This document shows positions 7,694 to 30,989 of a stretch of DNA of 64,000 nucleotides, one piece after another. A program made the position numbers and the translations under genes. Location: contig OZ005694.1 in assembly GCA_963930775.1 (NCBI GenBank), positions 2,294,001 to 2,358,000 of the forward strand, given 5' to 3'. The notes below the pieces were generated by a model, which searched no databases, was not told the DNA's origin, and saw only the letters and a list, made by a program, of their open reading frames with translations. The stretch's first letter is position 1. Every line of letters starts with the position of its first letter. The DNA is from Cliona cf. orientalis. Its lineage: Eukaryota; Porifera; Demospongiae; Clionaida; Clionaidae.

Positions 7694-10570
7694 TCAAGGA
7701 GTACCATTGATCAGGGGTTTAAGTTCAGGATCTTCAATTCGCTCATGAGCGATATCATCATCATCAATAATGCCATGGCCTTGATTTCGTCTGCACCTCC
7801 AACCAGCACTGAGACAAGGCTTGATCAAACTCCACACAACAATGACACAGAATTGAGCAAAGGTGAGTCCAATTGATACCATAAGCAATTTTGACCTTGA
7901 TTCGGTAGATTCCCACCTGTACAGAGTTCCAGAACTCAAGACAATAAGGTTCAGCAAGGTAGAACTTTCTAGAACTCTCACGTCTACTCGCTTATAAACA
8001 TTTTTGATTGATATGAAATAAAATAAGAAGGCTGTGAACAGAAATAGTGCAAACACATTCAATTCTGGGTTATATACTGAAGTTACTGTCAATAGAACAA
8101 GGAGTAGTCCTCGAACAAGAAGCATTGTTCCAAACCAGTATCGGTGCTTATCCTTCAAAGGAGAGAAGTAAGCATCATAGACAGGAGCTAGCTTGTTGAT
8201 CCACTTGAGTGGCCTTAAATGAGACACTCTCCTCAAAGGCTGAATGAACAGAAGCATGAGTGTATAGGGAAGCCACAAGAATATAAAAGTAGCAATGGCT
8301 GCTACAAAAAGATAAATGTGAGGGTGCTGGCAGTAGTGTAGGTTTCCATCGATGTACCACACAGCATAGGAGGTGTTCTGTGGGTACCGTGCTATCACGG
8401 CAACTGAGGTGGCATCTATCACAGTACGAAGGAGCTTCATGTAAGATAGAAGGAAGAGTGTGGCTAGAAGAGGAACGGCTCTGCTACCAATGAGATTAGT
8501 GAGGCGAGAGGAGTAGCGGCAAGCAACAATGATAACACCAGCAATGGCCCAGATGTAGAATGGGAATAGAAACTGCAGCCATGTCTTCCAATATGCATCC
8601 AGTCCAACAAAAAAGCAAGTCTCGATTCCAAAATCCAAGTTGAGCCAGGCAATAAAAACTTGAAGAAATGTGAATAAATAATCTGCTCCGGTGTCTGAGG
8701 GAAAGAGTATTATCTTGTAGGCCCATACAATGTTAGCATAGAAGATGACTCCATTAATGAGTCCTTGAGTGGCAGTGAGGTTGAGTGCAAGGATAGAGAA
8801 CACAAGGAGGACACCAGCAGCAGCGAAAGCAAGCAGGAGCGCCACGTTATGACTGTTGGGACATTTAATGCACCGAGAAGATCCAATTGCATGGCTAAAG
8901 TTGTCCATGCAGGCACCACACAGGATGCCGGTTCGGTTGGAGGCACACTGCTTGCTAGGATTATCTCCTATGTTGACTGTCTTGTTACCAGATTTGCAGT
9001 AGAGTAGAGGACAGAATCTGTTGTACATGATACCAGTGCTATGATCCTCATTGAATATTGCATTTACCCATGCAGTATCATTCCACTGAAGGAGACCAGT
9101 TTTGTTTTTCACTAAACAACTGAAGCCATTGTTAGCCAAGACAGGATAACAGCTGCATGTGGTTTTATCATGATTTAGAGTCAGTCCTGGAGGGCAGCCT
9201 GAGAGTAAGGTGATATTAATGAAAATAGGGGATGTTAGGAGGTCATTGTATATGCACCCAGACTGATTATACGAATTATAATGAGATATTTGACTCTTGA
9301 TCACATTTTCATAGTGGAAGATATCATGTTCTGTTGATTCAATGCTAATCAAACCAGATACTGGCAGAGGTGATGTTTGCAACAGTAAAAATTCATAATC
9401 ACGTTTTGAGTAAACTGTATAGTTAAAAGGAACACATTTTTTACTGTCGAATACCAGTTGGGATTTATCTCGAGAATCTGGATAAAGGGATCTGGCATGG
9501 ATCGTACCAACTGTAGTGCCAAAATCATAACCCACTATACATGCAGGTAATGTGATGGTTTCACCACGATAAACACTAGTATTAGTGAAAATATATGAGA
9601 AATTAGCACACTGTGGTTTACCATTGGAGTCACAGAGACACACACGCTGAGGCCCAGAGGATACCGGAGATAGGCTCGTATTGAATTTGATGCCAGAATC
9701 AAAGGAGATATTAATGTATCCATCAGGTTTTTCACCTTGAATCAAACAGTGAGGTTTTCCTTGCTCATTCACATAGCCTATGAAACCTCTAGAACATGAG
9801 TAATCCCTTACACTTGCTCCATAAATGTGGTGACCAATACCATATTGAGCATAGTTTGTTATAAAAGATACTTTAGCGGAGTAGTCTGTGATCATGAATA
9901 TACAAGGTAGTGAAGACTGAGAATACGCTGCTCCACCAACATCAAATGCTGTGTTGTTAATAAACTGAATACTCGACTGATACCCCACTGTGGTCATGAG
10001 TAATGATGGCATGGTACTATAGAGAGCACCTCCTTGAAATGCTGAGTTGTTGAATATAAGTAATTTGGAATAATTGCCAACAATGATAGCGGGGTGGACA
10101 CCTGCTTCAATATAAATTGCACCACCTTTCACTTGTGCTAAATTCGCAACAAAATTTACTGATTTATTGGTGTTGATGATAATGGAACTATAAGTAAATA
10201 TTATTGCTCCTCCATATGTTGCTCTATTGCGGTAAAATTCAATACCACTTGTATTCACGTGAACGGTTGAATTCAGTAACCTTAGGGCTCCACCGCTTAA
10301 GGCATGGTTGTATATAAATGTCATGCATGATTCAACACCTACAGTAATCATCCCATCCTGTATTGACACTGCTCCACCTAAAAAGTCAGCAGAATTATTC
10401 ATAAACACTACCCTTGCTTTAGCACCAATGTGCATTGTTGCATAATTCCCCGACACTGCTCCTCCATAATTGTTACATGTTAGGTTGACAAAGTACACAG
10501 TTGCACCTGTTGTGATTTTAAGTGAAGATTTGAGCTCAGGGTGAGTGGTTTCTAGATACACTGCTGTACC
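7694..10570 (-). pseudogene. Beta-helix/multi-TM membrane protein, 3' part, split by hAT insertion
   Basis: An open frame of more than 950 codons encodes the C-terminal part of a large membrane protein. In order: repeated GGAV/GGAI motifs spaced about 20-30 residues (right-handed parallel beta-helix like chlamydial Pmp repeats, Pfam Chlam_PMP); a Cys-rich stalk with CPPGLTL, a CxCYP and a CGACMDNF motif; then from about residue 575 nine or ten hydrophobic spans; and a cytosolic acidic tail (DDDDIAHERIEDPEL). The upstream part of the same exon lies at 13407-14164. The joint is interrupted by a hAT element, but removal of the element and one 8-bp duplicate restores one uninterrupted frame of about 1,210 codons. 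The ATG at 10573 is internal and partly outside the host sequence, so it is probably not the native start. Function unknown; a surface receptor or adhesion role is a guess from topology. Confidence 0.85.
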
Positions 10571-13406
10571 CAAAAGCGTCGTTTGGGTGGGGCCACTAGG
10601 GCCTTGGCCCTACCTACTTATCGACCTGTAATTAGGCTAAGCTATGCTGATTAAAGCTGGGCTACACCGATCACGTGACCTAGCATGTGATCGACTAGCA
10701 TAGCTAGCTGTGACTCAGTGATGTCAAGAGTATATACTCTTGGTGATGTGCAGTCTGTGCAGAAATGGCAAAACGTAAAAAGACGGATCAGCTAACGTTG
10801 GACTGCTTTGTTAGGTAAGATTTTGTGTATAATAAAGCTTGGTTTATGCTGATATTAATATTTACAGACCAAGGTCGCGCGAGTGCAGTGTGGAGTCGTC
10901 TAGATCACGCGAGCCCAGTGTTGATCAAGATAGTATGGCCAGTGCTGAATCAGGTTCGGAGGCGGAGAGCTTATCATCATCGGTTGAAATGGATGCCACT
11001 ATCCACAGTGACAGTAGTAGTAGATTGGAGGTCAGCTCAGCAGTGTGTGCTTCAAGTGAGGGTGATACTTCTTCAGTGGATACACCCATTGTTAAAGCAT
11101 CAGATCCAGGTCGTGGTCCTTTAGTAGCCAATATAAAGATTGGACCATTCAGACCACGTGCAAAGGAATTACCTGGACTGAAGTACCCATCGCGGTCACA
11201 AGGTAGCCGCCAGCGTTCCTTTCATGAAAAGTGGTATGATGAATTTGATTGGTTGGAATACAGCATTGAACTAGATGCTGCATTTTGCTATTGTTGTCGT
11301 CTAAGGGGTAGTCATATGTCAGGAACTCGATCTGATCCATCATTCATTATCCATGGCAACAGAAACTGGAAAGAATGCCCTAATTCCTTCCGAAAGCATG
11401 CAAGCTCTGAGTTTCACAAAACCTCCTATGTTCATTGGATACAAGGTCAAAGAATGCAAACTGCTGGTGACTCTGTAGCACAGCAGCTCAGTCGGCAGTA
11501 CCGCAAAGAGGTCCAAGAGAATAGACGAAATATAAGGAAACTTCTTGAAATAGTTCAACTCTTCTGTAAGCAAAATATTCCATTTCGTGGCCATAATGAG
11601 AGTGAGCAATCAAGTAATCGGGGAAATTATTTAGAAATTCTTCACTGGATAGCAAAAGATTCTCCTGAATTAAAGAGGCATCTTGAAAAGTCGTTTCATT
11701 ACACCAGTCCAGAATCGCAGAACGAAATGATTCAACTACTTGGGCTTAATGTTCAGAAACAGATTGTTATGGAGTTGAAAGAGGCTGGCCCATATGCACT
11801 TATTGCCGATGAAACCATGGACATCTCCAGAAAAGAGCAGTTTAGTATATGTGTGCGATATGTAACTGGTCAACTACAAGTTCAAGAGCGATTTCTGGGA
11901 TTTTGGGATGTAGCTACAACTGATGGTGAAACATTGTGCCTTAAAATTCAGGAGATTCTCAGTCAGCTTGGAATCAACTTGAACATGCTAAGAGCACAAG
12001 CATATGATGGTGCTTCAAACATGCGTGGGCGATACTCAGGGGTAGCAACTCGCATCAAAGAATTAGAGCCACGTGCGATATATATACATTGCTATTGCCA
12101 TCTTCTCAATCTTTCTCTGCAAGATAGCTGTACATCTGATCACCTAATAAGAAATACATTAGGCAGCGTGAATGCACTGTATGATTTCCTTGAAGCATCA
12201 GCTAAGAGACATAGTAAATTTGAGGCTGTCCAAAAGGCTATCAATACTGCAAAACCACCTACAACACTAAAGCATCTATGTGAAACTAGGTGGGCTTCAC
12301 GTTATCGAGCTGTTCATGCTGTAAAGGACCTATATGATGCCGTGATTAAAGTTTTGCAGGATATAGAACAAGAAGATGGCAAAGCTGGGGCTGATGCGGC
12401 TTCGCTGCTGAAGTCAATATCAACATTTTCATTTTTCTTCATAGTCTTGTGCTTGGATGCTGTATTTAGTGTGATTAATATTCTCTCGCAGTACTTGCAG
12501 GAGAAGACTATGACTTTCTCACGAGCAAGGACATGTACCAAATCCATACTCAGCACCCTCTCTCAGTTTAGAAATGACCAAAAATTTGAAAGTCTGTGGA
12601 AGGTAGCATCAGAAAAGCAGGCACAGCTGGAATTGGAGCCTCCAACTCTTCCGAGGCATCGCAGAATACCGCGTAGGATAGATGATGGAGAAGCAGAGAA
12701 TGAACAATATTCAAGTGTGGAAGCATATTTCAGGAGATCTTACTACAGTATGTTAGACATTTTGATTTCTGAAATCAATCAACGGTTTAGTGAAAACTCG
12801 TACTCAGTTCTAACTGCATTGGAAGCTCTTCTGTTGGACTCCTTTACTTGTCCCGAGCCGAAAGCAGAGCATCTAGCTGAAGTAGTAGGATTTTATGGTG
12901 ATGAATTTGTATCAGAGAAGCTGAAAAGTGAATTGATGGTTTTATATGGATTTGTGAAGAGTATTTCACCTCCCTGTTCTCGTGGCCATGAAGAGAAGTC
13001 AGTCGATGACTTGATTAGTTTGTTTTTGGAGCACAGCTGCTACCACATGCTTCCAGAGATATCTAAACTAATGAAATTGTATCTTGTAGTTCCAGTAAGT
13101 AGTGCAAATGCAGAGCGATCTTTCTCTGTGCTTCGCCGTACCAAAACTTGGCTAAGATCAACCATGCGTGAGGAGAGACTGAGTGCTCTGGCTTTGTGTA
13201 ATATAGAAAAGGAAGTCACTAACTCTCTGAGCTTAGATGACCTATTGGATCAGTTTTGTAGTGCTAAAGATCGCAGATTGCCTTTAAAGTGAAGTGTATT
13301 GTTATTTTTATTGAATTATGTTATTATACACATTCCTGACATAATAAAATTATTGCTTCCAGTGTACCCTGGCCCTACCCTCCAATAGAGTCATGTGACG
13401 CCACTG
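10571..13406 (+). mobile_element. Autonomous hAT transposon inserted in a coding exon
   Basis: The 2,836-bp element is bounded by an exact 8-bp target duplication GCTGTACC (10563-10570 and 13407-13414). The right end is canonical (complement begins CAGTGGCGTCA). The left end CAAAAGCGTC is imperfect at its first bases but shares GCGTC and a subterminal GGGCC...GGCCC pair. It carries one transposase gene with one short intron. The open frame and perfect TSD suggest a fairly young insertion. A damaged left terminus could affect mobility. Confidence 0.93.
10765..13292 (+). CDS. hAT transposase (ZMYM1/DUF4371-like), two exons
   Basis: Exon 1 is 10765-10814 and exon 2 is 10868-13292, with a 53-nt GT-AG intron (GTAAGA...TTTACAG). 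The reading frame closes at 824 aa. I chose the ATG at 10765 because its short Lys-rich exon (MAKRKKTDQLTLD) joins in frame, whereas the ATG at 10839 lies in the intron. After a Ser-rich leader comes a TTF/ZMYM-type zinc finger (CYCC, later His pair), a DUF4371-like region, the RNase-H-fold catalytic Asp residues in IADETMDIS and QAYDGASNMRG, and the C-terminal hAT dimerisation block with SSANAERSFS and the trailing Glu. No stop or frameshift is visible, so it may be active. It resembles domesticated ZMYM1-type proteins, but the flanking TSD shows it belongs to the transposon. Confidence 0.93.
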
Positions 13407-14164
13407 GCTGTACCTGATGATGAACCCATTGGAGAGTTGATCCCTGTAGTACTGTTGGTGAAGTTTACATTTCCTGCTAATGTTACTACACTAGAAAGGG
13501 CAGCAATAATTGAATATAATCGATGTCCGTATGACTGAAATATGCTGTTGCTCACAATTATCCCATCACTATAATGACTCCTAACAAAGCAGTTTTCTTT
13601 GAATGTACAGTTGTCCAGTAAAGCTTGTGAGCCACTTCCTGTAATGTTGATGAAAGATAAGGTTTCATTTATGCCAGGATAGCCATTGAGGTTGGAGCTC
13701 TTCACTGTAATATGGCTCTCTGTAAGATTTATCGCAGGACATCTCATCGTCAGGGTTGTGATGTTCACAAAGCTGACATTGAAGAACCGAATAACTGTGC
13801 ACTTGGATTTACTAACAAAATTATGATCAATGATGACATTCTCTCTGGATTCTGCAGTTCCTTTCATGACAAATGAGTGTAGATTTTGTACAGAGGAGTT
13901 TTTGGTATAGTTGTGGATTCCACACATGAATAACAGTGTTACATTGACGTGGTCTGATGAAAAGAACTCACTGCTATGCTCGGCTAAGTAGTCCATTGTA
14001 TAACAGAGCTGACCAGGTGGGCAGCTGTTGTTTTCAGGGCAAGAGCTGAGGTGCTTTACTGGCTTGACATGGTAGACCGTACCCTCAGTTAGCCTGACGC
14101 AAATTGATCCAAATATCAAGATGAAGAGATGAGATAGCAGCCTCATTATTGAGCTACTTTTCAC
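13407..14164 (-). pseudogene. Beta-helix/multi-TM membrane protein, 5' part, split by hAT insertion
   Basis: Starts with an ATG at 14164 and a typical signal peptide (hydrophobic LLSHLFILIFGSICV). It continues with the family's conserved N-terminal module: a Cys-rich SSCP...SCPPGQLCYTMDYLAEHSS segment, HVNVTLLFMCGIHNYT, then Asn-rich beta-helix coils with many N-x-S/T glycosylation sites. Coding sense runs without interruption to the target duplication, then enters the hAT element and meets a stop at about 13391. A transcript would give a truncated secreted fragment of about 257 aa unless the element is spliced out. The 3' part of the gene is at 7694-10570. Confidence 0.87.
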
Positions 14165-16387: not shown

Positions 16388-18991
16388 GACGCTGATTTAG
16401 AGGGCATGCGCAGAGCTGTAGCTATACAGTGGTGGCAAAATTGAAATTTTGGCTGGCGTTGCGTTTGTAGCGGATTCCCTGACAATCAGCCAAGCAATCA
16501 AGATGATTCTACAGGACTTCGGCCGACCAGTGTATCAGTCATCCACCAGCGAGTGTAAAGGTAACAACAATAATATTAATAAATACTGCCATGAATGCGA
16601 AGGACACGTCATTCTAATCTATTTGTTCACTGTGCAGGTAGAGGACATTCTGGGCATGTCCAGATGGCCTTCCGGTTTGTGAGAGCTTCCTTGTCAACAG
16701 AGACACAAGCGCCAGCATGGCACCACATTTTGCAGCTTGTGCACTGGACCATCGTTACGTTTTCAAGCACTGGTAATCTGCAGGTGCAGAATACTGGATA
16801 AGACTGTTCTCCTTTCACTGTAAGTCTATATCCACTTCGTCTCTCCCTCTTCACTGGGAACATCGTCATGTCCTGGCTCTCAAGACAACGGAGTAAATGT
16901 GTGTGGTAGCACACACCTGTAGATGGACAGCTACATGTTTCACTTGGATAGAGTGTTACCACTCTTGTGATGTCAGATGTTCCTTTCACATTGAATATGT
17001 GCATCTGAGGATTAAAGGATACTTTGTTATTCTGCACTAAATCCCTCGCTCGGGCATGGATAGATAATTGCTTCTTGTGTTCAGTACAAGTATCTTGGGT
17101 AAATGTAGGCTCATCACAGGTAGTGGGCACAGTCGTGGTCTCAATTTCACCACTTTCTTTGATCCGCTGAACGATCCCTTCTGGACTTTCGGTAGGTAGG
17201 TACTCAATATCTTGAGCATCAACTTGAAGTGTCTGGTAAAGAGGACGAAGGTGGTATTGCCCCAGACCTGTAGAGATGTGTGTTTAGTACAACAAGCATG
17301 TATGATCAGTACTCTTATCTAAGTACTCTAATTTAAAAGCAGTTACACGCCGTTTGGTACACCTATAATATCAGTTTAAATACCTGTTTAGTTTAGTTAA
17401 ATCTAGTTTAAATACCTGCAAAACCTCTCTTGATTTCATTGTAGTAATACACCTGCAGCTGATACAAAGCAAGCACAACTGTGTCAAGCGGGGCTTCTTT
17501 CCAGGACTGAAAATCCTTCACCACACGATTGAGACCTTCAGACTGGTTGTTGGTGATGCCACAGTATGGATTGTAGAGGTGGACTTGTTCAAGCACCCAC
17601 CTACCGATTTGGACAGGAACAGCTGGATGTATCTCATTCCGATAGTACTGTTCAAAAGAAGCATCCCACCTTTCACAGCATTGTTCTAGGAGTTGGTTGT
17701 ATGCCTCTTCTGAAGGAGAATGAAAGAGCTGGGACACGTCATCAACGTAGATGGTGATGTCTGCAGCTGGAGCACCATGTTTCCGAAGCCAAAAGCGAAC
17801 GTCTCTAAAAAGATGATTCCAGCACTGTACCATTTTGAGATTTGGTACTTCAAGCTCAGCTGCTTTGGTAATAGCTCTTTCCTTGTCAGTTACCATGCAG
17901 GACTTTGTGGTCTTTAGAGAAGGAATGTGGCGGACAGCTTCTTGGAACAGCACTCGGTGTGTCTCGGTGAATTTTCGTTCATGGATCAGATACATAGCTG
18001 GAACACACGGCTTTTCTGTGAATAGGGTGTGTCTGAATAGGAGCGGAGAGACATAAAAATCTCCTAGTTGAAAGGTGGTGTCATATGAAAGCAGTTGCCC
18101 TTCCTCCTGAAGCATGAGCACTTTATCTGCTTCATCAAGAATTTCCTGGAGACCACACACACAGACCAGATCAGGAAAAGTCGAGATCTTGTGTACATAC
18201 CCAGGTGTGTCATATGCTATTTCGTGCAGGTTGTAGAGTTCGTCTTTGGAAATTCTTGTTTGATGCAAATGCTTAAACCTGAGATTTCGAAGCTGTTTCA
18301 TATTACGTGGAGTATGTGTGGGAACATGTTCAGGTTGACAGGTCATCTGGCTTATCTCTTTCTTGTACACCACATTAGCTTTTTTCTCCTTGCATTCGGC
18401 TGCGCACTTTTTCAAGTATGATGGACAAGTTCGTACAAATGGAGTAGAAGTGTTTGCATTTCGATGTGGAAATTTTGAAACACATTCTTCATTGCCAATG
18501 TAGTGGATAAGTGTTACTGCCTTGCTGTCTATCAGCTGATAAGCATGCCTTTGAAAAGATTTGGATGGGCCATTGGGTGTGTCTAATACAAAGTAGCTCT
18601 TCTTAAGCACAGGATTCTTTCTTGGAAGTGCAGTGACACCATTGTTGATCCATCTGATCTGGTCTGCTCGCCAATCATCTACATATTAATATATGTACAA
18701 TCAAATTCACACGTTTATTGCAAGAGGTAGGTGTGATTACCTTCATTTTCTGGATTCTCTCTTCGAAAGATATAGACTTCACTGCCTTTTACACTCACTG
18801 GTGGATGACTGATACACTGGTCGGTCGGAGGCTCCTGTAGAATCTTGATGGCTTGGCTGATTGTCAGGGAATCCGCTACAAACGCAACGCCAGCCATCAC
18901 AGCTCGTCAATTTCAATTTTGCCACTTCGCACGCTCGCATTTCCCGCTACACTCCAGCTACAGCTCTGCGCATGTCCTCTAAATCAGCGTC
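16388..18991 (-). mobile_element. MULE-like DNA transposon with long TIRs
   Basis: The element begins GACGCTGATTTAGAGG and ends with its complement CCTCTAAATCAGCGTC. Inverted homology continues inward for roughly 170-190 bp (16388 to about 16561 against about 18795 to 18991), with small indels. The right TIR contains the first coding exon of the transposase, so the left TIR carries a second, partial, inverted copy of that exon. No clear 9-10 bp target duplication is visible at these borders. Confidence 0.8.
16627..18897 (-). CDS. MULE-type transposase with SWIM and PHD fingers, three exons
   Basis: Exons 18741-18897, 17416-18678 and 16627-17267 join in frame at GT-AG junctions to give 686 aa. 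The ATG at 18897 opens exon 1. The middle exon holds a MULE-like DDE core: first Asp in LLSYDTTFQLGDFYVSPLLF, second in MVTDKERAITKA, then CWNHLFRDVRFWL and a Glu in TNNQSEGLNRVVKD. Exon 3 carries a SWIM zinc finger (CSCPSTGVCYH), as usual for MULEs, and a C-terminal PHD finger (CTC, CTSCKMWCH, CPEC). A PHD reader could bias insertion or binding toward modified chromatin; that is inference. No frame break is seen, so the enzyme may be intact. Confidence 0.87.
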
Positions 18992-19457: not shown

Positions 19458-22400
19458 GTAGAAATTATCCATCAAAAATGTCTCAGTGCTGGTTGGAGGT
19501 GTGGACAAAATAAAAGCAATGATGTCATCGATAAGATCATTGATGATAGTGACATTGCTCACGAGCGAATCGAAGATCCTGAACTTGAACCACTGATCAA
19601 TGATTCACCTCAGTCCATTACCATACCAGCTTCTGCTAAATGATTGAAGCAGCTAACAAAACTGCAAACAAGACTTGATCAAACTCCATACAACAATGAT
19701 ACAGAATTGAGCAAAAGTGATTCCAGTTGACACCATGAGCAATTTCGACCTTGATTCTGTAGATTCCCACCTGTACAGAGTTCCAGAACTCAAGACAATA
19801 AGGTTAAATAAGATAGCACTTTTTAGAACTCTCACATCTACTCGCTTGTAAACATTCTCAATCGATGTGAAGAAAAGTAAAAAAGCTATGAGCAGGAAGA
19901 GTGTGAACACACTCAGTTCTGGATTGTCCACTGAAGTTATAGTCAATAAAATCAGGAGTATTCCTCGAACAAGAAGCATTGCTCCAAACCAGTATTGGTG
20001 CTTATCCTTCAAAGGAGAGAAGTAAGTATCATAAACAGGGGCTAGCTCCAGGCCTTCCAATAAGCATCCAGTCCTATAAAGAAGCAAGTCTCGATTCCAA
20101 AATCCAAGTTGAGCCAGGCAATAAAGACTTGAAGAAACGTGAATGAATGATTTGCTCTAATATCTGTAGGAAAGAGTATTATTTTGTAGGCCCATACAAC
20201 GTTAGCATAGAAGATGACTCCATTAATGAGTCCTTGAGTGGCAGTTAGGTTGAATGCAAGGATAAAGAACACAAGGAGGACACCAGCAGCAGCAAAGGCA
20301 AGCAGGAGCGCCACATTATGACTGTTGTGACATTCAATGCACCGAGATGATCCAATTGCCAGGCTAAAGCTGTCCATGCAGGCACCACACAGGATGCCAG
20401 TTAGGTTGGAGGCACACTGCTTGCTGGGATCATCTCCAATGTTGACTGTCTTCGTACCTGCATGACTTGCAATAAAATAGTGGACAGAATTTGTTGTACA
20501 TAGCTAATACCAGTGCTATGACCTTCATTGAAAGTTGCATTCACCCACACAGTGCCGTTCCACTGCAGGAGACCAGTTTTGTTTTTTACTAAACAACTGA
20601 AGCCATTGTTAACCAAGACAGGATAACAACTGCATATGGTTTCATCATGACTTAGAGTCATTCCTGGAGGGCAGCCTGGGAGTAAGGTGATATTTATAAA
20701 CACTGGAGTGATTAGGAGGTCAGTGCTGATACATCCAGACTGATTACACAAATTATACACTGATATTTGATTCTTGATAATATTTTCATACCTAAAAATA
20801 TCATTTTCTTTTGATTCATTGCTAATGTAACCAGATACTGGCAGAGATGATGTTTGTAACAGTAAAAGTTCATAATCAAGTTTTGAGTAAACGATATAGT
20901 TGAAAGAAGTACATTTTTCACTATTGATTACCAGTTGCAATTTGTCTCGTTTTGAGTGAGAATCTGAATATAGGGATCTGGCATGGATCGTACCAACTGT
21001 AGTGCCAAAGTCATAACCCACTATACATGCAAGTAATGTGATAGTTTCACCACGATAAACACTGGTATTAGTGAAAATGTACGAGATATTAGCACATTGT
21101 GGTTTACCATTGGAGTCACAGAGACATACACGCTGAGGAGCAGAGGATACCGGAGATAGGGTATCATTGAAGCCAGGGTCAAAGGAGATATTAAGTTCAC
21201 CATGGAGACCTTTATATAGATCAGAACAGTGAGGTTTTCCTTGTTCATTCACTAAACTTATGAAATCTATCTATAGAACATGAATCATCCCTTACACTTG
21301 CTCCATACATGTGGTGACCAACACCATGTTGTGCATAGTTTCCTGTGAAAGATATTTTAGCAGAGTAATCTGTGATCATGAATATACAAGGTTGAGAAGA
21401 CTGAGAATACACTGCTCCACCAACATCAAATGCTGTGTTGTTGATAAATTGAATGCTCGACTGATATCCCACTGTGGTCACGAGTAATGATGGCATAATA
21501 CTATAGAGAGCACCTCCTTGAAATGCCGAGTTGTTGAAAAACATTAATTCGGAAAAATTACCAACAATGATAGAGGGGTAGACACCTGTTTTTATGTAAA
21601 TTGCACCACCATTTACTTGTGCTGAATTCATAATGAATTTTAATGACTTATTAGTGTTAATAACCATGCTTCCATACGTAAAATGTATTGCTCCTCCAAC
21701 TGATGCTCTATTGTCGTAAAATTCAATACCACTCGTGTTCACATGAGCAGTTGAATTCCGTAATGATAGAGCTCCTCCATATTTGTCTGCATGGTTGCAT
21801 GTAAATATCACATATGATTCAGCATCTATAGTAATCATTCCACCCCACATGTACACCGCTCCACCAGCCCAACCAGCAGCATTATTCATAAAGACCACCC
21901 TTGCTTTAGCACCAATGTGCATTGCTGTATTCCGCCCAGACACTGCTCCACCATCATAGCTACACGTCAGGTTGACAAAGTACACAGTTGCACCCATTGT
22001 GATGTTAAGTGAAGATTTGACCTCAGGGTGAGTGGTTTGTAGAAACACTGCTGTACCGAATGAATTAATTAAAGAGGGGATCCCTGTAATACTGTCAGTA
22101 AAGTTTACATTTCCTGTTAATGTTACTGCACTAGAAAGGGCAACAATAATTGATTTAAGTCGATGCCTATATGACTGAAATATGCTATTGCTCACAATTA
22201 TCCCATCACTAAGATTACTCCTAATGAAGCAGTTCTCTTTGAATGTACAATTGTCCAGTAAAGCATGTGAGCCTTTGCCTGTAATATTGATGAAAGATAA
22301 ACTTTCATTTATGCTAGATCTAGAGTAGCCAAAGAGATAGGAGTTCTTCACTGTAAGGTGGCTCTTTTCAAAATCGATTGCAGGACATCTCATGTCAGGG

Positions 22401-22803
22401 TTGTGATGTTCACGAAGTTTACATTGATGAATAGAGTAACTGTGCATTTTACAAGTTGCATACCAAACTGATTGTCAATAATGACATTCTCTCCGGATTC
22501 TGTAACTCCTTTCATAACAAATGAGTGGAGATTTTGTACAACCAAATCCTTTGTATAGTTGTGGACTCCACACATGAATAACAGTGTTACATTGACGTGG
22601 TCTGATGAAAAGAACTCACTGCTATGTTCGGCTAAGTAGTCCATTGTGTGACAGAGCTGATCAGGTGGGCAGCTGCTATTTCCAGGGCAAGAGCTGAGAG
22701 GCTCTGTTGGTGAGACATAATAATATACCACATCCTTCTTGGTCTCAGCTAGCACATATATCAGTCCAAATATTAAGATAAGGGAGAGAATGAAAGTCTT
22801 CAT
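19458..22803 (-). pseudogene. Family copy C, frameshifted, internally deleted, inverted 3' end
   Basis: The true start is the ATG at 22803 with a signal peptide (MKTFILSLILIFGLIYV). Compared with the split copy, it has lost one base between 22393 and 22394 (CTGAC-ATGAGA for CTGACGATGAGA). It has gained 4 bp near 21262-21275 (duplicated ATAG), which restores frame, and shows two further small insertions at about 20455-20510. It lacks about 390 bp coding several membrane spans between YWKAW and LAPVYD (near 20050). Its last coding segment (about 19478-19668: SAGWRCG to the tail) lies in inverted orientation on the plus strand. Despite this, codons between lesions stay close to the paralogue, suggesting recent decay. 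Confidence 0.9.
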
Positions 22804-22808
22804 TTTTA

Positions 22809-22845
22809 CCCCGCGCGCATGCGCAAGGGGTAAAGTAATCGGTCG

Positions 22846-22878
<33 letters not shown>

Positions 22879-23135
22879 GAGCACAAAAATCGCCATATCT
22901 CGAGACCTAGGCACATGTGCGATTCATAAGCACAAGGAATCAGTCGAATTTGACGAAAAAATGGCTTTAGTGTATTTCAAATCGATAGATACTATCTACA
23001 AGCGTCAGAAATAGTGCCATTTTGTTGGCAATCGTAGCCACGCCTATTGACAGTGCCTACTATCATAACTTTGGAGGCCATGCAGTGGCATCTTATTACC
23101 CCGCGCGCATGCGCAAGGGGTAAAGTAATCGGTCG

Positions 23136-23988: not shown

Positions 23989-26900
23989 ATGACAAGTTTG
24001 CTCAGTTCATCAAAGATGGAATTACGCAGAGAGAGAAAGCGTTCATTGAAAGTTCGAGAAATGATCGAGGTTGAAAATGAAGTAAAAAAAGCTAAGAAGG
24101 ATAGGTAAGTGCTGATGCCTACTTTACGGTTTAAACTTTATCTGGCATTCTAACTATATGCAGTAGGAGACGGCAGACGGTATCGTCCATGGCCACTAAG
24201 CGTCGGTCTGTTGATTGCAGAGAGAGAGAAGCTATGGCTATGGCTACCAAGCGTCAGTCTGCCGAATACAGAGAGAAAGAGGCTGTGGCTAAGGCTACAA
24301 AACGACAGTCTGCTGAATTCAGAGAGAGAGAAGCTCAGGCTATGGCTACCAAGCGTCAGTCCGCTGAATTCAAAGAGAGAGAGGCTGTGGCTAAGGCTAC
24401 AAAACGACAGTCTGCTGAATTCAGAGAGAGGGAAGCTCAGGCTATGGCTACCAAGCGTCAGTCCGCTGAATTCAAAGAGAGAGAGGCTGTGGCTAAGGCT
24501 ACAAAACGACAGTCTGCTGAATTCAGAGAGAGGGAAGCTCAGGCTATGGCTACCAAGCGTCAGTCCGCTGAATTCAAAGAGAGAGAGGCTGTGGCTAAGG
24601 CTACAAAACGACAGTCTGGTGAATTCAGAGAGAGAGAAGCTCAGGCTATGGCTAGTAAGCGCCAGTCAGATGACTTCAGAGAGAGAGAAGCACAAGCAAA
24701 GAGACAATGCCGTATCAGAGAGAGATCTACGGCCAGCAGCATCTTGCAAGCTTCTCAAGCTTTCATTGCAGCTACTAAAGAAGGACCAGATTACATGTGT
24801 GTCTGCTGCAATCGCTTGATGTACAGGAAAACTGTAATCGAGTTCAAGGTCACCAAATACAGCAAAGCACCTGATGACTTCACTGTACCTCATTCTGGGA
24901 CCAAACAATGGATATGCAAAACTTGTGACAATGCACTGAAGCGGGGAAAGTTGCCTGCTCAAGCCAAGGCCAATAATTTGGACCTTGAGGATATACCATC
25001 AGAGTTATCAGACTTAAATTCATTGGAGGTGCGGTTTATTTCGTTGAGGATCCCCTTTATGAAGATGGTGGCACTTCCCTGTGGCAAACAACGTGCCATT
25101 CATGGACCAGCTGTCAATGTCCCAACTGATCTTACTCCTGTGTGTACCCTTCTACCAAGGCTTCCATCTCAAATGCAGATGGTTCCAATGAAACTGAAGC
25201 GAAAGCTATGCTACAAGGGTCACTACATGTTTCAATACGTACGACCAGCTAAAGTGCTTGCTGCACTACAGTGGTTAAAATTGAATAATCCACTGTATAA
25301 AGATATAGAAATCAACAACGACTGGACAAGCAATGCTGGACAGGACGATGCTGATCTTTGGGAGGCAGTATCAGCAGAGCAGTGTCTACCACCATCATCA
25401 CCAACACCGTCAACTACTAGTCAGGCAGTATCAGCAGAGCAGCGTCCACCACCATCATCATCACCACCGTCAACTACTAGTCAAGCAGTGTCAGCAGAGC
25501 AGTGTCCACCACCATCAGCTACTAGTCAAACGCTCATCGAACAACTGCAACTGAATGGTAAGTGATGTGCTAATTAACTACATTCTATGGTAACAGTACA
25601 CTGTATGTGTGCATTGTATGTGCACGAGTGTGCTGTGTGCATGTGTGCATGTGTGCATGAACATATTAATATGAATAGACAATTATTAATTATTATTCAT
25701 TGTATGCAGTACTATGTCTAGAGATAAAAATTATTCCCACAGTGACAATGAGATTTCCCCAATTAATAATTATAAGGATATCTTTTGTCTTTTGTTTTAC
25801 AGTATTATGCTGAGAAAGCTATATAAATAATAATTATATATTCCTCTTTTTGGTATTCAGATGAAGCTACTTTGAATTCCCTGGCCAGAGAGAGAGGATT
25901 TGCAGTTCAAGATGTACCCGGCGATGGAGACTGTCTCTTTTCAGCAGTGGGTGTGCAACTAGAGAACATTGGCATCCAGAGTGGTAGGAGAAATCTGAGA
26001 GCAGAGCTTGTGGAACACCTGCAGAGTTCTCCATACACACATGGCTCTTCCCATTTGAGGGATTATATATCGGCCCCCGTAATAGCTGATGATCCCCTTA
26101 ATGCAGATACTGAAGCACCAACTAGGCAAGACGAGGTCATTAGTTCTATTCAGGATGCTGACCTGAGACAGCAACTGAGGTGGTTATAGTATTTAGAAAG
26201 ACTGAATGCAGGTGCGTGGGGAGATCACATAGCTGTTCAGGGACTGGCTGATATGCTCCACGTCGACATACATATCATCTCGACCATCAATCCTGACATG
26301 GAACTAGTCAGAACCTCTCACCACACTTCCATTGGAGTCATCCACCTAGGCTTGATTGGCCAATTCCACTACCAGGCGCTTGTAAAGCTTGAAGAGCATT
26401 GCGCTGCTAACACTTTGTTAGAAAGTCAGGTACCTGTATCCCCAGAGGAAAAATATGACCAAGAATTTGTTGAAGATCAAGAAGCCTTAAAGCATCAAGC
26501 CCAGCTCAGAGGATTGCCCTATGACAGCTGCCTGCTGAGGGAAGATACAGTTGATACAACATCAGATAATATCTTTGCTATTGCTCCAGGTGAAGGACAC
26601 AAGCCAATCAGTATCCTCCAAGACAAACACTTTGAAGAAATGTGCAATCCAACCAAATATCCAACTGGAAAATTTGGTTTGATTACTGAGAGAAAGATAA
26701 AGCTCACAGTTCGCAAGTACTTCAACCAGAGACTGCTTGATGCAGATGGAAGATTTGCAAGGGATATTGAGTACTTGCTGACAGCACAGTATGCTGTTGA
26801 AAGCAAACAGGTTGCTGATGATGCTAGTATTGCACTCAGACAAACTCAGGGGAGGTTGCACAGAGGACAGGTGCTCACTGCAGGATCAATAAGAAACCAG

Positions 26901-29900
26901 CATGTTGTCAACGAGATGATCCAAAAAGACCATGCTTACCGCTTCCTTAAGAATGTACGTGGTTCACCAGCCTATTTCCAAAGAGTCATGTACGATGTGC
27001 TTGGGATGATCAGGCAGCTAGGAATTCCAACATGGTTCTTCACTCTCTCAGCAGCTGACATGCAGTGGCCAGACGTCATCCAGACAATAGCCAGACAGTA
27101 TGGCACCATACTGACTGATGATGATGTGAAAACAATGTCATTTGAGGAGAAGAGCAAGTGGTTGAGACAAAATCCAGTCACTGCAGCCAGACACTTCCAG
27201 TATCGTCTCAACACCTTCTTTCAGCTCTTCCTTAAGAGTACAGCTCATCCTCTTGGTGAACTAGTCGACTATGCCATCAGAATCGAGTTCCAAGCCAGAG
27301 GATCTCCTCATGCTCACACCATCCTCTGGATCAAGGATGCACCCAAGTTGAATATCAACACTGATGAAGAGGTGTGCAGCTTCATTGACCAGTATGTCAA
27401 ATGCAACATCCCAGATGATGAAGAGTTGTCTCAGCTGGTCTCCAAAGTTCAGAAGCACCGCCATTCAGCCACATGCAGGAGACATGGCAAGTGTCGCTTC
27501 CACTATCCTCGTCCACCAAGCCCAAAGACAGCTAGTGATTGCTCGTCAGTCCATTGCTGCCACATATACAGAAGAACAAGCTGAACAGGCAGTGAAAGCC
27601 CTAGCTGCTGTGCGGAAAATTTTAGATGACAAAGACACTCCTGAAGATATCAGCATGGATGAACTCTTTCTGAAAGCAGGAGTATCATCTAACATATACC
27701 TGTGTGGATTGAAGATATATGTTCCACTGGAAACAGTGTTGTCATGCAAAGAAAACCATCAGAATCATGGATCAACACTTATAATCCAGATGTCCTCAGA
27801 ATATGGAAAGCCAACATGGATTTGCAGTATATCCTGGATCCATATGCATGTGTGATGTACATAGCTGCATACATGCTCAAGAGTGAATGATCAATGGGAG
27901 AACTACTGAAGCAGGTGTCTAAAGAATGTGGAGGTGAACAAATTAGAACCCAGCTGAGACGTCTTGGATCAGTCTTCCTCAACCATCGTGAAGTCAGTGC
28001 TCAAGAAGCAGTGTACAGAATCCTGTCATTACCACTCAAACAAATGAGCAGGAAAGTAATCTTTGTCAACACAGCTGCCAAGGAAGATAGGGTATCCCTA
28101 CTGAAACCTATTAATCACATTCAACACATGGATGAAGACTCGGAAGACATCTATCAGACCAGCTTGATAGATAGATATGCTGCTAGACCTGATCAACTCA
28201 ATCACATGTGTCTTGCTGAATTTGCTGCTAATTATACGACTCGTAGTGGACAAGAGGTTCCAGAAGACGAGACTAGTGACGTATTGCCCAGAGCTGAAGA
28301 TGGAGAAAGTAGACGAAGTGAAAGCATCAAACTTAAGAATGATCTTGGACGCATGTACAAAAGAAGGAGAGAAGCCATTATTCGATTTCACCGGTTTAAC
28401 CAAGAGAAAGAGCCAAGTAAGGTGTACAGATCCAAGATAATGCTTTATCTTCCATGGAGAGATGAAAATTCTGACCTACTAGGTGGATATATGAACTTCC
28501 AAAGTCATTATGAAGATAAAAAGGATGATATTTTGGAGAATGAAAGGAAATACAGTCAGAATGCTACTGAAATTGATGAAGCCATTGATGACCTAACTGA
28601 GCATGGACCACCCCAGCATGCATGGGACCAGGTAGCTCCAGGTGCAGCTGAACAACAAGCTCAAGCTTAAGCAGATGGTATTGAAGAAATGAGAATCATT
28701 GAGCAGGAAGACTTGGATGCAAATGCATCCCTTTTTCAGCAGCAGCAAACAACTCCCCTGCTCCAGAGGTTTAGCTTGGAAACCAACAGAGCGCTTATTC
28801 CACCAGATGAGTACCGTGAGCTCATGAGAGGTCTAAACACCAAGCAACGACAGATTGTGAACTATCATAGAAAGTGGTGTAAAGATGCTGTCATAGCTAT
28901 GAAGAAAGGAGAACCTATCAAGCCTTACAGAGTGTTTGTCAGTGGTCCGGGTGGAGTTGGTAAAAGCTACGTCATCTCTCTCATTCGCAGAGATGCAATA
29001 AAGTTGTTGCTCCTCTCAGGACAAGTGGAACCTGAAAATGTGGTAGTGTTGCTAACAGCACCCACAGGAGTTGCTGCATTTAACATTCAGGGGATGACTA
29101 TACACTCAGCGCTTCTACTTGGTACATCAAAGTTTAGCTCCCAGCCTCTCACACAGGACAAGCTGAACACTCTCAGAACAAAGCTGTCCAATTTGCAATT
29201 GCTCATCATTGATGAAGTCTCTATGGTTGGTTCCAACATGCTACTCCAGATCCACAAGCGACTCCAGCAGCTGAAGGGTAAAGGAGATGATACAACCTTT
29301 GGAGATATCAGCATACTTGCTGTTGGTGATCTTTACCAACTACGACCAGTTGCACAGCCACATGTGTTCGCAGAGGTTGGTGATGCCTATGCACGGCTCC
29401 ATAAATCTGGCTCCCTTTGGATTGATGAATTCAAAATGATTGAGCTGGATGAAATCATGAGACAAAGAGATGATAGCCAGTTTGCCCAGCTTTTGTGTCG
29501 AGTGCGCACTGCCACCTGCACTGATGAGGACATCAAGGTACTCGAATCAAGAGTCATCACAGACGATCATCCTAGCTATCCTCATGATGCCCTCCATGTA
29601 TATGCTCGCAATGCTCATGTGGATGATCAAAACAAGTTGAAATTAAAGGAACTTGCTCCAGAACAACAACATATAGTAATCAAAGCCATCGATAACACCA
29701 AGGACAAGCATACACAATTGCTTAACTTAAAACCATCAGACAACAAAGCTGACACAGGAGGACTCGTCAGTGAACTACATCTTGCTGTTGGTGCCAAGGT
29801 AATGCTAACTGTTAATGTTGATGTTTCAGATGGATTAGTAAATGGTGCACGAGGAACTGTTGAAGATATCATCAAAACTGGCAGTGAAGTCACCTTAGTC

Positions 29901-30989
29901 CTTGTCAAGTTTGATCATTCCCGAGTAGGTGTCACAGCAATTGCACAGAGTCAGTACCGCAGCCAGTATCCTGAAGCTGTACCTATCAGCAGACATGAAG
30001 CAGTATTCTTCATCGGAAAGAATAAAGCTGCTGAAGCAAGTAGGAGGCAGTTTCCACTTGTGCTAGCCTGGGCCACTACCATTCATAAAGTGCAAGGACT
30101 GACAATGGATCAAATTGTTGTTGATATGAAGAAAGTCAAATTTGATGCAGGGCAAGCATACGTAGCCTTTAGTCGAGTGAAAACTCTTCAAGGCCTATTC
30201 ATTAAAAACTTTAAACATGAGAACATCAAAGTTAGTGACAGTATTGTGAGTGAAATGAAAAGGTTGTCTACACAGAGCCTCCCCAGTGAACCAGTACCAA
30301 AGGTACTCAGTCTACCTAAGGATGGCTGGATGAAAATCAGTCATCTGAATGTACGTTCATTCTTGGCAAAGTATGAAGATATCATCAGAGATCAAGCTAT
30401 GAAGCAAGTCAACATCATGTGCTTCACTGAGACCTTCTTCCAGCCTGGACAGCACCTTGAAAGTAGCCATTTGCCTGTGACAGAAGAATGTACAGTTTTC
30501 CGGCAGGATCGTATCCAAACAAGCACTGAAGATCTAGCCAAGGGTGGAATAATGATAGTATGCCCCTCTTCATTGCAGCCTATTAGGATGAATGTCCCTC
30601 ATCCACCTGAGCTAGAAATACTGACTGTTGAAACAAGTTCCACTCATTCTGGGGGCAGAATGTGTATTATAGCAGTCTACAGACGTCCACAGCAACATCT
30701 AGCCGCATTCTTGTCTCTCATTGGTGACTATTTAGCAAATCTTCCCCAGATAGTGCCCACCATTATTGTTGGCGACTTCAATGAAGATATTTCAAGGTCA
30801 AACTCATCCAGATTGCTCCAGTTAATGACATCCAGAGGATTTTCTCAGCTGGTTCAAGTGCCCACCACAGACTCCGGGTCACTTTTGGACCACATATATT
30901 TTAATGGCATCATCGAAAACAGCTTTGTAGATGTCATTGACACATACTACTCAGACCATGACGCTACTTATTTATCATTCCAAATATAG
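23989..30989 (+). pseudogene. Helentron Rep-helicase-endonuclease polyprotein, degenerate
   Basis: Exons 23989-24104, 24164-25557 and 25861 onward join in frame. Order: a 17-aa charged repeat (ATKRQSAEFREREA, about ten units, 24189-24700); a CxxC zinc-finger and DUF6570-like region (24790-25330); a Pro/Ser/His-rich linker; an OTU cysteine-protease domain (GDGDCLFSAVG); Helitron-like N domain with HUH motif GSPHAHTILW (about 27300) and CRFHYPRPP; the Y2 tyrosines in MYIAAYMLKSE (about 27855); a PIF1-type helicase (GPGGVGKS, IIDEVSM, IHKVQG); and a C-terminal AP-endonuclease-like domain (IIVGDFNED, SDHDATYLS). Lesions: TAG at 26187, frameshifts near 27525 and 27730, TGA at 27888, TAA at 28668. 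The helicase-endonuclease half (28689-30989) is open. The order is typical of Helentrons; this copy cannot make a full-length protein. Confidence 0.9.
24189..24702 (+). repeat. 51-bp coding minisatellite (17-aa repeat)
   Basis: About ten tandem 51-nt units alternate between two versions (ATKRQSAEFREREAQAM and ATKRQSAEFKEREAVAK), giving a higher-order 102-bp period. Between second-version copies the nucleotides are nearly identical. The peptide is a highly charged Arg/Glu helix, possibly a nucleic-acid-binding or spacer arm. Confidence 0.92.

Follow-up and report, generated by a model that had tools for sequence, protein, structure and literature searches.

A hAT transposon has almost certainly inserted recently, with duplication of 8 bp, into a single-exon gene of a tandem family in the sponge Cliona cf. 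orientalis, and the insertion is a presence/absence variant between sequence records. It lies in a stretch of 64,000 nucleotides that was analysed as a whole and is called the window hereafter. The insertion is well supported and of an ordinary kind. It provides a clean case of a live-looking DNA transposon in a sponge genome, with empty sites, paralogous and very probably allelic, proving the insertion. Among the matches listed from the literature on hAT elements and sponges, on element splicing and on sponge insertion polymorphism, all in excerpt form, no comparable case was found.

Anatomy of the insertion

An initial sequence-only reading had described a hAT element between exact duplicates, splitting an otherwise lesion-free coding exon, and the details bear this description out. 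Two identical copies of GCTGTACC flank the element (Table 1), the chance identity of two random 8-mers of the window being about 4e-5. Removal of the element and of one duplicate brings the two host halves into phase as a single minus-strand open stretch of 1,209 codons, close to the 1,210 or so first claimed, of which 1,202, counted from the ATG, make up the single-exon host gene. The transposase frame is likewise open and matches DUF4371 (PF14291, E 6.1e-29) and the hAT dimerisation domain (PF05699, E 6e-10), in keeping with the identity put forward at the outset; transposase and host gene are on opposite strands.

Table 1. Features of the insertion locus, in window coordinates.
Feature	Position	Strand	Remarks
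Host gene, 5' half	13407..14146	-	ATG at 14146
Host gene, 3' half	7694..10570	-	stop at 7694-7696
hAT element, 2,836 bp	10571..13406	+	between exact 8-bp duplicates; other copies share ends
Target site duplicate GCTGTACC	10563..10570	.	downstream of element, host-gene sense
Target site duplicate GCTGTACC	13407..13414	.	upstream of element, host-gene sense
Left terminal repeat CAAAAGCGTC	10571..10580	+	7/10 identical to right end
Right terminal repeat, CAGTGGCGTC on minus strand	13397..13406	-	compared with left end
Transposase exon 1	10765..10814	+	inferred from ATG and GT-AG
Transposase intron, 53 nt	10815..10867	+	TAG/GTAAGA ... TTTACAG/ACC; inferred
Transposase exon 2	10868..13292	+	DUF4371 and Dimer_Tnp_hAT; stop ends at 13292
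Hypothetical GT-AG intron, 2,850 nt, in frame	10564..13413	-	both sites inside duplicates; sequence only
Broken paralogue, ORF pieces P0332 and P0326	21248..22896	-	synteny anchor; 100% identical

hAT elements have a length of 2.5-5 kb (PMC3942097), a range into which this element falls. The 8-bp duplication of hAT elements is seen in two complete insertions, with GCTGTACC here and GAGATCAC on contig C8, and their dimerisation domain is present. As for the terminal inverted repeats of 10-25 bp, those of this element are imperfect, with 7 of 10 end bases alike, a score reached by 0.5% of random pairs; the ends are set by the other copies, the left one agreeing with that of the C8 copy and the right one with those of the copies on C8 and C1. 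In its 8-bp duplication, putative short terminal repeats and hAT dimerisation domain, the element is similar to BuT2 and the Tip group, and its size of about 2.8 kb is also that of BuT2 (2,775 bp) (PMC3942097). The likeness is one of features, and a difference is that no more than 7 of 10 bases agree between the two ends. The combination of DUF4371 and hAT dimerisation domains is also found in the ZMYM1-like proteins of animals and plants; unlike these, the protein identified here is encoded within duplicates and element ends, which points to a transposase and not to a domesticated gene.

The transposase likely comprises 824 aa, starting at ATG 10765 and interrupted by one GT-AG intron. In an alignment of 23 sequences, D324, E759, C418, H421 and W485 are invariant and D390 nearly so (numbering from D324 to E759 is that of the 817-aa ORF), columns that we take to be the catalytic Asp/Asp/Glu and the CxxH and RW motifs of hAT transposases. 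These enzymes carry an N-terminal zinc finger of the BED or TTF type, for which the ORF without exon 1 gave no Pfam match at 1e-3. By sequence, the search against solved structures returned a weak match to Hermes (E 0.0035-0.0051). Among the relatives listed, the first to carry a name is a Corticium candelabrum protein (42% identity), and one of Ephydatia muelleri also appears, both species being sponges. No relatives were found in viral contigs.

Other copies of the element

The 216.8-Mb genome (149 contigs) harbours at least three copies of the element, namely those of the window, C8 and C1, with Kimura distances of 0.018-0.020. The C8 copy, which has the duplicate of its own mentioned above, is split by an insert of 14,567 bp, and the C1 copy is a truncated, 3' fragment. 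The window copy differs from the 5' piece of the C8 copy by 10 nonsynonymous and 21 synonymous codons, from its 3' piece by 1 and 10, and from the C1 fragment by 1 and 9, respectively. As the codon changes are mostly silent and the two C8 pieces and the C1 fragment contain one stop each, these comparisons fit a transposase that was maintained in this family until recently. The window copy is the sole intact element among the copies found, and it could serve to test whether hAT elements are still mobile in a sponge genome.

Neither the C8 nor the C1 copy is the source of the insertion, both being non-identical to the window copy; in the 3' part common to all three, the window copy has 11 unique differences and the other two have 5 each. 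P0121, a protein with 98% identity to the transposase (481 aa), is encoded on a contig of 4,812 bases. It spans the point at which the C8 copy is split, and judging from this it is a further copy elsewhere. Two short matches of 73% identity, on C9 and C1, point to related elements. The genome search found no small non-autonomous derivatives with both ends. Short matches to the left end alone occur on C7 (49 bp) and C10 (38 bp); the one on C7 (C7:3662134-3662182, L008), with 86% identity, is perhaps the end of a related element. Approximately 35 bp with the palindrome CAAGAGTATATACTCTTG, at about 10718-10755 of the window, are present in this copy and missing from the C8 copy; this stretch has a 38-bp match on C10.

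The insert of the C8 copy (C8:5633179-5647745; L009, L010) has terminal inverted repeats starting with GTAGGAACGCAAACGC and a duplicate of 8-9 bp, and it encodes a RecQ-like helicase (DEAD, Helicase_C) and a DUF6589 protein; it is probably a large DNA transposon. By eye, an inverted repeat of about 85 bp encloses the C1 fragment (C1:24299473-24300358, L003) between its arms, as though another element had captured it.

Empty sites among paralogues and in a second record

In all 13 paralogues fetched, both flanks of the insertion are present and neither end of the element has a match. The site is continuous in the nine with aligned letters, with a single 8-mer that reads GCTGTACC in five of them, GCTGTGCC in three and GCTGCACC in one, and in the other four the two flank matches have exactly 8 bases in common. 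These single 8-mers in paralogues also show the duplication. At the protein level, 98 of the 119 other homologues listed (the best 120 of 486 found, P0001 included) align across the insertion site and 21 start downstream. Four of these alignments have some 26-36 extra residues near the site and several have small gaps, none of them element-sized.

The insertion had been proposed to be recent and maybe polymorphic, and the protein P0001 (1,152 aa; source ENA) speaks for this. It is identical to the upstream host half over 197/197 residues and to the downstream half over 958/958, continuous across the site, the three residues at the duplicate being common to both matches. Its first residue is an internal Met, 50 residues past ATG 14146, the earlier part of the allele lying outside the record. 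Among the matches listed, the closest full-length relative after P0001 is 84% identical, and shorter ones are up to 88% identical. The opposite situation, with all haplotypes carrying the insertion between decayed host halves, is at odds with this protein, which is intact across the site.

P0001 is encoded on a contig of 1,007,164 bases, as are P0003, P0109, P0326 and P0332, and we infer from the equal size that they share one contig. The window encodes P0326 and P0332 identically, some 8 kb away from the element. P0109 is 99.87% identical over 750 aa to a gene at C6:2.187 Mb, 117 kb off, and P0003 is 99.81% identical over 1,069 aa to C6:2.096-2.099 Mb, about 207 kb off. As its proteins match surrounding genes at 99.8-100%, this contig appears to cover the insertion locus. 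Five others from a contig of that size (P0009, P0014, P0021, P0046 and P0092) had no comparable match in the part of the cluster examined. P0001, known from protein alone and not from DNA, is thus very probably the empty allele.

It is conceivable that P0001 is a gene model in which the insertion was treated as an intron and left out, the host being eukaryotic and the record giving no method. Nevertheless, of the nine cut positions at which P0001 would be recovered exactly, not one has GT...AG borders, and the overlapping ORF pieces of the broken paralogue are listed as two proteins, as if by a caller that does not join exons; the internal Met start of P0001 is also in the style of a plain ORF caller. 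Both the cut positions and the separate pieces argue that P0001 stems from uninterrupted DNA, and a skipped intron is very improbable. We give just as little credit to the idea that P0001 is an excision product and not the ancestral empty site. hAT elements do excise, but they usually leave changed or extra bases, none of which is evident in the P0001 protein, and the paralogues share the clean site. An ancestral empty allele is the reading that we retain.

Within the assembly, the empty junction was not found even when up to 3 mismatches were allowed. The search there for a second haplotype contig (haplotig) covering the locus was likewise negative, flank matches of at least 600 bases being at most 90% identical, the locus itself aside; short flank pieces (61-228 bases) reach 93% identity (40 of 255 candidates scored). 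No second record with the insertion emerged: the N-terminal piece retrieved 107 proteins of 365 candidates with a best identity of 86%, and for the C-terminal piece no other protein came near 100% among the best 120 of 486. Of note, the paralogue that includes the synteny anchor is broken into several ORFs at 20401-22914 of the window, with one break near 22393.

Alternatively, the element might be carried as an intron with splice sites in its own duplicates, so that the host protein of carriers would be in frame minus Gly-Thr, which we consider very unlikely. A suitable pair, CAG/GTACAG ... GGTACAG/C, is indeed present; the exon would end at 13414 and resume at 10563, with two residues lost and the frame kept. 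Only 102 of the 2,866 host 8-mers would give such a pair. Nevertheless, about 1 in 28 host sites thus suffices by chance, which makes the presence of the pair weak evidence, and 18 in-frame GT-AG combinations, this pair included, were listed near the element ends. The donor and acceptor contexts of the pair look weak by eye against the consensus. Neither strand of the C8 duplicate contains both a GT and an AG, and P0001 retains Gly-Thr and so lends no support. DNA transposons acting as introns have been reported, some with duplicate-derived splice sites and some changing the codon number (PMC9860276). The Introners described there are DNA elements in coding exons with possible splice sites in the duplicate, as is the case here; unlike them, this element encodes its own transposase and measures 2.8 kb, and instead of many similar genic copies we found three, a lower bound.

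The host gene family and the fate of the broken copy

The host gene had been taken to encode a large membrane protein, with which its predicted features agree. Its N-terminus is hydrophobic as judged by eye, Pfam detects Chlam_PMP repeats, and a simple scan gives six hydrophobic C-terminal segments. The AlphaFold model of P0001 (mean pLDDT 72, mostly >80 over residues 71-480) contains a predicted beta-helix. On the basis of these predictions, the proteins of the family look like secreted ones that combine a beta-helix with a multi-pass membrane portion. The fold search with this model returned nothing at E <= 0.001, its top rows being mostly weak beta-helix matches such as tailspikes, and the search of solved structures by sequence gave no match. 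No description of such a beta-helix membrane family was found in the excerpts of the literature on Porifera and the Chlamydia polymorphic membrane protein. We found no relatives of the host half searched in prokaryote genome contigs. One protein of the family, P0266, is assigned to a metagenome-assembled genome of Proteobacteria and may be animal contamination of that record.

The 5' flank and the N-terminal part of the host gene match a tandem family, chiefly on C6 at 1.46-2.31 Mb and at 10.9 Mb, with at least 72 matches (40 of 255 candidates scored). Pairs of C6 members at 1.80/2.07, 1.52/2.23 and 1.84/2.26 Mb have equal or near-equal scores, suggesting segmental duplication.

In the scenario that we favour, a cut-and-paste hAT transposon, presumably mobilised either by the transposase it encodes or by that of a sister copy, inserted recently into one member of this family with the usual 8-bp target duplication. 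The insertion breaks the host copy, presumably with loss of its function. The read-through product would have 251 residues, i.e. 247 of the host followed by four others and a stop, and the 3' half is without the hydrophobic N-terminus, its first Met coming after 48 residues of open frame. Given the dozens of paralogues nearby, the loss of one copy is probably tolerated, and a large beta-helix membrane gene family would thus absorb the breakage of one of its members.

The window contains traces of other elements. A probable Helitron-type element is represented at 24189-30989 by ORFs that carry DUF6570, Helitron_like_N, PIF1 helicase and endonuclease domains, and an ORF at 17408-18610 bears a MULE transposase domain.
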